From contig NC_025260.1 of NCBI RefSeq assembly GCF_000740895.1, positions 2,646,001 to 2,710,000 on the forward strand: 64,000 nt of DNA. The letters are read 5' to 3'. The notes beneath the pieces are model-generated. The model saw nothing but the letters and a program-made list of their open reading frames with translations, was not told the origin of the DNA and did no database searches. Source of the stretch: Theileria orientalis strain Shintoku. Taxonomy: Eukaryota; Apicomplexa; Aconoidasida; Piroplasmida; Theileriidae. The translations under genes and the position numbers were made by a program. Every line of letters begins with the position of its first letter. Position 1 is the stretch's first letter. Shown piece after piece: positions 5,979 to 62,479 of this stretch.

Positions 5979-8355
5979 ATGTACTATATATTATTTGTAT
6001 GTATTCTTGCACTTGACTTTGTCTGTTCCCATGTGGAACATAATTCTGAATGTGTCTCCTTGAACATCGTTAGGAGAAGGCCTGACCGGATTTTAATTTT
6101 ACGTCAGAACTTCTATAATATTGACACTTTAGTTTATACAGCTAAGGATGGATACATAAATGAAGTTATTGACGACCGGGGTATTATATGGAAGAATGAT
6201 AGGGGCAGGTTGAAATTGAGCAAAGTGATTAAATTTAGAAAGGAATCAAAATTACTCCATGTACATTATATATCAGCTGATAACCTTTCTTATGTAAAAT
6301 ACTTTTATCGCACTGGGAGAGTTTGGAATGAAATCAATTCTGAACGGTTCTATCTCGAGTTTGATCTTCATAGGTCCGAAGCCTCAGTCGTTTCATACTA
6401 CACAATATACTTAAGACGAAATAACGACGAAAAAAGGGCCAGAGTTAATAAATCGAAAAAACTAAAATTTGCGGCTTATGGCCCAAATTACGGTTATCGC
6501 ATTAATAAAGTCTGTGACGTGAGTTTGGGGATAATGTGTTTTAAGAGTGTTTGGTATTCGAAAGAAGATGAGCATTGTTTGTTCACTTCGGTACACAATA
6601 GGGATAAACCTGATTTGGCCTACCTCGTTATTTCCGATTCAGGAAACGTGGTTGAAAAGTTTTATCATAAACCTCCTGGTGTTTTTAAGTCATGGAAACC
6701 TATTGATAAAACTGAATACTACAGCAAGTTGAAAGAACGGGATCTTGATTTAGATAAGTTTGACAATACAGTTCAATTGGATTTAAATAACATTGATTCC
6801 GACAAGTTTTATTCTAGTGAATTCGGTTATAGACGTTCAACCATCGCAGCATATCCTAAGCCAGGTTTTAGAATGACTAGAGTTAGTTATGCTAATATGA
6901 TCATTTGGGAATCTGGCAAATCTGATGTGTATTCCTATTGCGCAAACATGTTTTCAGACAATGAGGAACCAAAACTGTGTTATGTTCTAGTTAGTGAAGG
7001 AAATGAACGTAGAATCGAGTACTTCCTTAATAACAATAACACATGGTATAAAATAGATAAAAAAAGATTTTATCATCTGTTGGCCAAAAAGGATGATCCT
7101 AGATACACTCATCGTTACGAGGGTATTGACGAGGAAGGCAATCGTAACATAGAAATGAGTTATTTTACCAATAAACAGGGACTCATGGTTAAAACATATA
7201 GATCAATGGTCCCTAATCACAAGGGAGTTATTTTGCTGATCCATGGTTTTGCCATGCACTTCCTGTCGACATTTATGAAATACAACATGGACTGGAACTA
7301 TCAAAACTTCGGTTTTGCCACTCATCCTTATATAGTCTGTCCAGATGTAAACTTCTTTTATAACTATAGTAGATTTAATTATGATCGATACAAACACATC
7401 TTCGAATATAACTTCTACGATAAACAATACCCCTCTAATTTAATCCAAATGTTTGAGTATTCAGGTAGTATGCTTGAATGCTTAAACAATATGGGTTATA
7501 GTGTGTATGGAATGGATTTCCAGTCTAACGGGTTCTCAGAGTCAGTAGATAGCATAAAATCCCACTTCACCAGATACACGGACTTAATCAAAGATGTAAC
7601 GCAGTTTGTATATATTATCAAGCGTCAGAAATTCACTGATACGAGCCAAGTGTGGACCGAAAGAGTGAACTCGATAGGTATAAAGTTTAACGAAAAGTTC
7701 ATGATATTCGGGTATTCACTGGGCTCCAACGTGTCATTCAGAGCGATAGAAGAGTTTAACAGACAACACGACCTGAAAGAGAAACTGGCAGATGCGTTCA
7801 TATCGCTATCGGGAATGTTCGACCTCGCAAGTAACATAAAGGACTTATATCACAGGGCATACCTAGGGCTCTTCCCCCTGTTTGCAGCCTTTGCGCCGAG
7901 GTATGAAAACAGGTATCAGCAGTACCCTAACTACGGCCAGAGATACAACTTCACAATGTACTTGAACGTAAGTGTACCCAGAAATAAAAATCTTCAGGAC
8001 GACAGGTACGGACCGCACTTCTGCAGCTGGAGGACGCTGAAGTCTCTGTACCTTGCCTGCTGGGCATCAAAGAGAAACGCCAAACATTACCCAAAAAATA
8101 TGCCAACGCTGTTCATCCACTCCTCTGAAGACTACAAGTGTAACATAAAGGTGAGTTTAAGATGAATGTTAAGGTCGTGTTCAGGGCGTGAGAAAGATTG
8201 AGGCCAGGCTGGGATTTAACGCAAGCGTCGTGGAAATGCCGGGGAGAGACCATCACACATTTGAAACGGATTTCCTGGACCCAATATCGAAGAACTTGGC
8301 AGAATGGCTGGCCACGACAGTGGGAAGAGAAACAATCGTAATACACTCCAAATGA
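5979..8355 (+). CDS. Secreted FAINT-like protein fused to an alpha/beta hydrolase
   Basis: Two exons, 5979-8150 and 8185-8355 (34-nt intron), 780 residues. A signal peptide (YYILFVCILALDFVCS) is followed by about 390 residues of FAINT-like repeats. These show short beta-strand blocks ending in patterns such as IIWKND, KYFYRTGRVWNEI, SVWYSKED and MIIWES. From residue 416 the fold changes to an alpha/beta hydrolase: GVILLIHGF (oxyanion region), GYSLGS with nucleophile Ser580, a probable acid at Asp718 (HSSEDYK) and catalytic His at 747 or 748 (GRDHHTF). The hydrolase half resembles the serine aminopeptidase S33 / monoglyceride-lipase-like group, which is expanded as lysophospholipase-like PST proteins in Plasmodium. 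The substrate is unknown. All three catalytic positions are present, so activity is plausible. The fusion is unusual. Confidence 0.8.
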
Positions 8356-57799: not shown

Positions 57800-58306
57800 T
57801 TATGTTATCCCATGAAGAGATGATAATAGACTGATTAATAAAGCCAAGTGTGTAGATAGAGATAGAAACGAGCCCTTCTTCCTTTTAAACAACCCCAAGA
57901 ATCCACGGCTCGATCTTTTATTTAAAGCGTCTTTAAAATCTGAGTATGTAATGGGTGTCCAGGTGGAAATCGTGTTCATGAAATACAAATTCCACTCCTC
58001 ATCGGGCTTAACAACTTTCATGTAAATTAGAAAAGGCTTATCGTTACTCTTATAAACGTCAACCTGAAGACATTGCTGTTTATAAGAAAGCCTTTGCCAT
58101 ATGAAATTGTAGTCCTGAATTACCCGTGCGATTATAAAGCTCCTTTTGGGGGTATATCTGATAAACTCCTCTCCCTCATCCTTAATCGGCTCCATCCTGA
58201 ACATTTCATCGTCTAGATTCTTAGAAATGTCCAATGTTTGAGCCATTTTCTCGGCCCTGCATTCCAAAGTTAACAACGCTATTATCAGGGTTGCAACACA
58301 CTGCAT
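57800..58306 (-). CDS. Secreted FAINT-like protein with hydrophobic C-terminus
   Basis: Single exon, 168 residues. Signal peptide: MQCVATLIIALLTLECRA. The middle resembles a single degenerate FAINT unit: QVDVYKSNDKPFLIYMKVV, EWNLYFMNTISTWTPIT, then SDFKDAL. The C-terminus is basic (KRKKG) and then hydrophobic (LALLISLLSSLHGIT), which could be a GPI signal or tail anchor. It has the same layout as the gene at 56423, so the two may be related surface proteins. Function unknown. Confidence 0.75.
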   Translation of the reverse strand: MQCVATLIIALLTLECRAEKMAQTLDISKNLDDEMFRMEPIKDEGEEFIRYTPKRSFIIARVIQDYNFIWQRLSYKQQCLQVDVYKSNDKPFLIYMKVVKPDEEWNLYFMNTISTWTPITYSDFKDALNKRSSRGFLGLFKRKKGSFLSLSTHLALLISLLSSLHGIT

Positions 58307-62095: not shown

Positions 62096-62479
62096 ATGAA
62101 AAAATCTGCATATGCCATTGTAGCTTTTCTGCTTTTATTAGCAGATAAATATGCAAAATGCCACATTGATGTAACAATAGACTTAAAAGTAAAATGTAGT
62201 AACAAACTCTGGGACTACGAACACCTAGGATACGCGTACGGCAATTATGATAGTTTCCTTTACCATCTGAAAGAGGGATATAAATGTTACAGAGTAACTT
62301 ACGGAAATACTGTAATTTGGAAGTCAGCTGGAAATGAAAGGGCAGATAGGGTAGTTCTCAGTGGTAGAGGATCACAAAGAAAAATGGTTGAAATAGATTT
62401 GGACGATGATACCGTAATTTATTATTTCAAACCAGGCCGATTTAGAACGTGGAAAAGATACATTAGTGATAATATATGA
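62096..62479 (+). CDS. Secreted single-FAINT-domain protein
   Basis: Single exon, 127 residues from the Met at 62096. That start gives a signal peptide (MKKSAYAIVAFLLLLADKYAKC). The open frame reaches back to an ATG at 61931, which would add 55 residues before the signal and seems less likely. The body matches a FAINT pattern: LKEGYKCYRVTYGNTVIWKSA, then DRVVLSG, then DTVIYYFKPGRFRTWKRYI. No anchor or C-terminal tail. Role unknown. Confidence 0.75.
   Translation: MKKSAYAIVAFLLLLADKYAKCHIDVTIDLKVKCSNKLWDYEHLGYAYGNYDSFLYHLKEGYKCYRVTYGNTVIWKSAGNERADRVVLSGRGSQRKMVEIDLDDDTVIYYFKPGRFRTWKRYISDNI

Follow-up and report, generated by a model that had tools for sequence, protein, structure and literature searches.

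Two groups of apicomplexan proteins are among the closest described relatives of the gene treated here. The first is the PST-A family of Plasmodium (TIGR01607). Its member PfPARE is an active esterase with the putative catalytic residues S179, D308 and H338 (PMC5263872), and several Pst-a proteins were detected with activity probes (PMC9464883). In P. chabaudi, the PST-A lysophospholipases have expanded to 28 copies, and there is evidence for red cell export of some members from P. berghei and P. falciparum (PMC4242472). The second group comprises the secreted Theileria proteins with FAINT domains (PF04385/DUF529), such as SVSP, TashAT and p104. For the Shintoku sequence of Theileria orientalis, 142 FAINT proteins were reported (PMC9323827), and several papers call the function of FAINT unknown (e.g. 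PMC2657828). The gene described here encodes the protein P0001, in which FAINT is joined to an alpha/beta hydrolase. It is located on the forward strand at positions 5979 to 8355 of a window of 64,000 nucleotides from T. orientalis strain Shintoku (contig NC_025260.1, positions 2,646,001 to 2,710,000), which is part of contig C1 (2,746,313 bases) of a 9.0 Mb genome in six contigs. P0001 is probably a secreted, lysophospholipase- or monoglyceride-lipase-like enzyme of the parasite-host interface, encoded by one of seven PST-A-like loci and presumably made a mosaic by gene conversion.

P0001 shares with PST-A the N-terminal motif of the hydrolase domain, alignable GxSxG, Asp and His residues and the occurrence in several copies. 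It differs from the Plasmodium family in scoring below the curated cut-off and in having FAINT and a signal-like N-terminus, both of which the Plasmodium protein P0007 lacks. Around residues 432-492, P0001 has an insert that is present in shorter form in P0007 and that none of the seven aligned bacterial sequences has. Like the secreted FAINT proteins, P0001 has three FAINT stretches behind a signal-like N-terminus. Unlike SVSP, TashAT, p104 and the FAINT proteins of T. equi, it also carries an enzyme domain; the descriptions consulted of those proteins link no enzyme to FAINT. In SVSPs, the signal peptide is followed by a disordered region rich in Q and P, and FAINT is C-terminal; a few SVSPs are devoid of that region, so that it does not define the family (PMC2657828). 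In P0001, FAINT is N-terminal and no Q/P-rich region was seen by eye. The spherical body protein 3-like protein of Babesia resembles P0001 in its signal peptide and three FAINT domains; in contrast, it has a cysteine-rich region, and its domain scheme names no hydrolase (PMC5870374).

Exon 1 (5979-8150) encodes 724 residues and exon 2 (8185-8355) another 56 followed by the stop codon. Translated separately, the two exons matched residues 1-724 and 725-780 of the annotated protein of 780 amino acids (aa). The intron at 8151-8184 has 34 nucleotides (nt) and GT...AG ends; an earlier note on this DNA, made from the letters alone, had placed it there, in agreement with the database protein. The database entry is named 'conserved hypothetical protein' (Theileria orientalis strain Shintoku) and already lists FAINT and Hydrolase_4. 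The fusion is therefore on record through automatic annotation, under this name and 'Serine aminopeptid...'. The gene has the following features:

5979..8355, + strand: whole gene for P0001 (780 aa); translated exons match the database protein
5979..6029, + strand: signal-peptide-like N-terminus, residues 1-17; most hydrophobic 19-residue window, cleavage site placed by eye
6105..6266, + strand: FAINT stretch 1, residues 43-96; PF04385 with 22.0 bits (cut-off 20.7)
6408..6629, + strand: FAINT stretch 2, residues 144-217; PF04385 with 20.7 bits, which equals the cut-off
6777..6995, + strand: FAINT stretch 3, residues 267-339; PF04385 with 34.0 bits (34.9 in the genome search)
7149..8150, + strand: alpha/beta hydrolase domain, exon 1 part, residues 391-724; Hydrolase_4 with 44.5 bits, PST-A-like, model matching monoacylglycerol lipases
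7242..7247, + strand: HG motif, residues 422-423, presumably beside the oxyanion hole; has counterparts in PST-A and in several of the bacterial rows
7716..7718, + strand: Ser580, putative nucleophile in GYSLG; position read in the exon translation, alignment
8130..8132, + strand: Asp718, putative triad acid in SSED; position read in the exon translation, alignment
8151..8184, + strand: intron of 34 nt between the triad Asp and His; GT...AG, exons equal the database protein
8251..8253, + strand: His747, putative triad base; position read in the exon translation, alignment
8185..8355, + strand: exon 2, residues 725-780, containing the putative catalytic His; translation equals the database protein

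The earlier note had also claimed FAINT-like repeats for the first ~390 residues, a hydrolase for the remainder and the union of both in one secreted protein; this domain reading was borne out, together with a signal-like start. Pfam FAINT (PF04385) matched P0001 in three stretches with 53.5 bits in total (E value 2.3e-14; gathering score 20.7). For the scores of the single stretches, the repeat half was cut into thirds and each third was scanned alone. Hydrolase_4 (PF12146) matched residues 500-749 with 45.8 bits (gathering score 27). The FAINT and hydrolase halves share a single open frame of 724 codons, and the same order is found at five more loci of this genome and in the T. parva protein P0006. 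The highest mean hydropathy over 19 residues (1.96) was found at residue 1, in keeping with a signal-like N-terminus. Beyond the first residues, no window exceeded 1.37, so that a second membrane segment was not seen, and no known retention tail was recognised by eye at the C-terminus. This profile fits a soluble secreted protein.

The putative catalytic residues were examined in an alignment with three Plasmodium proteins (P0007-P0009) and with bacterial proteins from seven of ten loci that a pattern search had found. Ser580 (GYSLGS), the candidate Asp718 and His747/748 were found where the earlier note had placed them. S580, D718 and H747 align with the triad of P0007-P0009. Counting only rows that have a letter, the Ser580 and His747 columns are at least 90% conserved, and by eye the Asp718 column holds Asp throughout. 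Of the two histidines in GRDHH, it is His747 and not His748 that occupies the catalytic column. One bacterial row (L053) has no nucleophilic Ser at the aligned place and was retained. The role of the HG motif is assumed from the fold family. Ser580, Asp718 and His747 would thus form the triad of a secreted soluble serine hydrolase, composed of a signal peptide, three FAINT units and a monoacylglycerol-lipase-like domain related to Plasmodium PST-A. To judge from family and fold, the enzyme would likely hydrolyse an ester bond of a small lipid such as a lysophospholipid or a monoglyceride; the substrate is not deducible from the fold. The FAINT array may serve as a binding or placing module, which is a guess. 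The Pfam and UniRef label 'Serine aminopeptidase' was rejected as a description of function, since the closest matches among curated families and structures resemble lysophospholipases or monoglyceride lipases.

A first structure model from 9 sequences had a mean predicted local distance difference test score (pLDDT) of 40.7 and was set aside as too poor. The addition of 7 bacterial sequences gave a better hydrolase core and left the FAINT array without a model. In a Foldseek search, the modelled domain matched the alpha/beta hydrolase fold, with template modelling scores (TM-scores) of 0.64-0.77, normalised to the target, for monoacylglycerol lipases. The sequence identity to these enzymes (human MGLL, Rv0183) is only 14-17%. 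Both are single-domain proteins and are not known to carry FAINT. Long S9/DPP4-like peptidases were also among the 50 Foldseek rows listed, with TM-scores of 0.26-0.32 normalised to the target. The FAINT array was judged unlikely to be a DPP4-like propeller.

Several results weigh against the enzyme assignment. As a whole, the model has low confidence (mean pLDDT 51.3, predicted template modelling score 0.47); 16 of the 38 ten-residue blocks of residues 391-770 average a pLDDT of at least 70, the block containing His747 has a mean of 64, and the FAINT half has no confident model. A phmmer search of the Protein Data Bank (PDB) with exon 1 alone gave no hydrolase match. PST-A (TIGR01607) was the sole NCBIfam match of P0001, and its 142.4 bits (E value 1.8e-41) stay below the curated whole-protein cut-off of 218.25 bits, in comparison with 479.5 bits for Plasmodium P0007. 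P0001 is therefore termed PST-A-like and not PST-A. None of the matches of this profile in the genome exceeded the cut-off, and the annotated T. parva P0006 is truncated, ending ahead of Asp and His.

The FAINT-hydrolase is not a lone fusion but a small gene family. The PST-A profile gave 15 match pieces in the genome, which fall into seven loci:

C1, window gene: + strand, 5979..8355 of the window
C1:2612921-2615254, - strand: sister gene, encoding P0002 (L034)
C3:297 kb, - strand: PST-A-like locus
C3:1436 kb, + strand: PST-A-like locus
C4:1609 kb, + strand: PST-A-like locus
C1:1660 kb, - strand: PST-A-like locus
C4:1980 kb, - strand: PST-A-like locus

FAINT scored above the Pfam cut-off in six of the seven, and FAINT precedes the hydrolase in five loci besides the window gene. 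At C1:1660 kb, Pfam returned no FAINT match, neither in the whole frame nor in the first 257 residues. At C4:1980 kb, FAINT and most of the hydrolase are located in two successive open frames (L039 3057-6182 and 2208-3017), of which the FAINT frame has 1041 residues and reaches the apparent start of the hydrolase domain. GxSxG is present in 7/7 loci, six by pattern and the seventh as GLSMG. The Asp motif was found by pattern in five loci and by eye in the other two, and likewise the His. Apparently, all seven loci keep Ser, Asp and His. By eye, the reading is interrupted between Asp and His in all seven, like at the window gene's intron; the splice was checked against a protein for the window gene alone. 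Over the compared parts, five paralogues are only 28-37% identical to P0001.

The sister gene is about 36.7 kb away from the window gene on the opposite strand. BLASTN joined the two gene regions only at window positions 6013-7541, with 93.9% identity. The comparison divides the window gene as follows:

6019..7517, + strand: span near-identical to the sister gene, in blocks 6019-6358, 6462-7232, 7304-7429 and 7454-7517; identity runs, silent sites
6359..6461, + strand: diverged island 1, taking in the first part of FAINT stretch 2; 45% nt identity over residues 131-165, synonymous divergence (dS) not computable
7233..7303, + strand: diverged island 2, over the HG loop; 54% nt identity over residues 419-437, dS not computable
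7518..8355, + strand: diverged catalytic part, residues 513-780; 95/250 aligned residues identical, 54% nt identity over 155 exon 1 codons

The blocks are 99-100% identical, silent sites included; they cover the FAINT array for the most part and extend over portions of the hydrolase domain's first third. Block 6019-6358 has one difference to the sister gene and block 6462-7232 has two. In a forced alignment, the flanks beyond the gene reach 40-57% per 100 columns. The longest run of identical codons is 134; when the 666 codon columns were shuffled 10,000 times, no run was longer than 45. Among degenerate codons for the same residue, in segments whose borders were chosen after the identity runs had been seen, 109/109 (codons 14-126), 243/243 (162-417) and 65/66 (442-512) were identical. 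Outside the blocks, the values were 23/62 (513-666), 5/12 and 5/14 (islands) and 1/2 (1-13). Selective constraint on the protein was rejected as cause of the FAINT identity, as the silent codons are also the same (109/109 and 243/243 versus 23/62). An apparent identity run at 7977-8147 was dropped, since it falls at a gap where the first open frame of the sister gene ends. The block edges do not track domain borders exactly, and the blocks enter the hydrolase at residues 391-417 and 443-512, the latter with a short gap inside. A DNA search found one other copy of the block in the genome.

Comparisons with other Theileria proteins serve to date the shared blocks. Over residues 162-418, the two Shintoku paralogues share 254/257 residues with each other, and each shares 224-225 of 254-257 with P0003 and P0004 from other T. 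orientalis records. Over residues 513-780, the sister gene shares 206/244 residues with P0003, 141/198 with P0004 and the mentioned 95/250 with the window gene, which itself shares 111/251 with P0003. In the catalytic part, the identity is 0.38 between the paralogues and 0.34 between each of them and T. parva (52 and 51 of 152 residues). Because the catalytic parts have diverged about as far as from T. parva and the blocks are near-identical, the duplication must be old and the sharing of the blocks recent. The putative signal peptide, both islands and the catalytic part (513-780) are old and diverged between the sister genes. Recent ectopic gene conversion, the simplest cause of the shared blocks, would have homogenised the greater part of the FAINT array and some of the hydrolase's first third and left the catalytic part distinct.

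The identity of the blocks could also stem from an assembly error, as the DNA-level reading rests on one assembly and patches of 99-100% are unusual within otherwise saturated genes. Still, the islands between the blocks stay distinct, the open frames are intact, and the sister gene's block of residues 162-418 recurs with 233/233 residues in the separate T. orientalis record P0005, which concerns the sister block alone. An error of this kind is thus improbable, and gene conversion is retained. The position of island 2 over the HG loop invites the view that active-site differences were kept by selection, which is no proof; chance placement of the tract ends would give an equal picture. If carried further, FAINT would be a constant address or docking module, homogenised by conversion in two secreted lipases whose active-site loop and catalytic part are kept different by selection. 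One location would then be served by enzymes with different specificity, and this would be a first functional clue to FAINT. The odds for such a module are low, because FAINT stretch 2 begins within a diverged island and homogenisation also extended to parts of the hydrolase's first third.

Concerning the location, P0001 probably enters the secretory pathway, as far as can be judged from its sequence, and would act at the parasite surface or in the host cell, because hydrolysis would follow this entry. The general claim of the earlier note that FAINT proteins are exported to the host cell stood only in part. It agrees with a Babesia protein with three FAINT domains which is secreted into the erythrocyte cytoplasm (PMC5870374), but the T. 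annulata FAINT protein TA11945 is described as detected in the schizont only (PMC11237503) and p104 as located on the schizont surface (PMC8096294). These two cases speak for an enzyme that recycles lipids within the secretory system or at the membrane of the parasite itself, with FAINT tethering it to the surface or retaining it, and that never reaches the host. Given the Babesia protein and the lack of a visible second membrane segment or known retention tail in P0001, such a role is rather unlikely, and P0001 might deliver a lipase to a host compartment. It is also conceivable that the hydrolase fold was kept as a decoy or scaffold, with P0001 being an antigen or binder whose catalysis is unused. 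This would suit the nearest mention found in the literature, a T. orientalis 'putative lysophospholipase' (signal peptide, PF12146; not tied to one locus) in a table of raised ratios of nonsynonymous to synonymous substitutions (dN/dS) rich in FAINT proteins (PMC5921998). However, Ser, Asp and His persist in 7/7 loci despite the low identity of five paralogues to P0001, and the triad was kept though the catalytic part of the sister gene is so diverged. A decoy is therefore quite improbable compared with the secreted enzyme.

The domains of this enzyme are known, the multi-gene FAINT-hydrolase architecture has been little noticed, and the mosaic is unusual. No paper on a FAINT-hydrolase fusion was among the matches listed in the open-access literature, a body without most subscription papers and all bioRxiv preprints. 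In a paper on exported proteins of Babesia bovis (PMC7561165), the terms FAINT, lipase and hydrolase do not occur. The scavenging of nutrients, including lipids, by Theileria schizonts was termed unexplored (PMC8096294). FAINT fused to an apparently intact enzyme offers a handle: the reaction is open to assays, activity-probe labelling and localisation, and a comparison of enzyme versions that have or lack FAINT would address what this module does. The relation to PST-A further suggests a related set of lipases that Theileria and Plasmodium each directed into the secretory pathway, with a different N-terminal part.

Four of five gene models of the other Theileria proteins look incomplete (P0003-P0006, versus P0002). 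The other T. orientalis records P0003, P0004 and P0005 lack the N-terminus, P0004 also Asp, and P0005 also Ser and Asp, so that all three triad residues are visible in P0002 and P0003 only. T. parva P0006 (XP_766706.1) has a signal-like start, FAINT with 29.6 bits, PF12146 with 24.9 bits (below the cut-off of 27) and PST-A with 100.7 bits. It surfaced in one homologue search only, which was neither the one with the hydrolase half nor the one with the family profile. These two, with a word-based first step that does not establish absence, gave no homologues from T. annulata, T. equi or Babesia.

Further observations were made on the family. The genomic open frame of the sister gene starts signal-peptide-like (MYY...VCSHVEH), unlike the annotated N-terminus of P0002, which points to a possible error in the 5' part of the public gene model. 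The member at C4:1980 kb has GG in place of the HG motif. The one at C4:1609 kb has a hydrophobic C-terminal segment with a tail of lysines and arginines (L037 4488-4832) and may be a membrane-anchored FAINT-hydrolase. Two extra loci match Hydrolase_4 without PST-A; the score of one exceeds the Pfam cut-off, and that of the other falls short of it. Two more FAINT matches are located towards the window's right end, at 58025-58237 (- strand) and 62237-62395 (+ strand).
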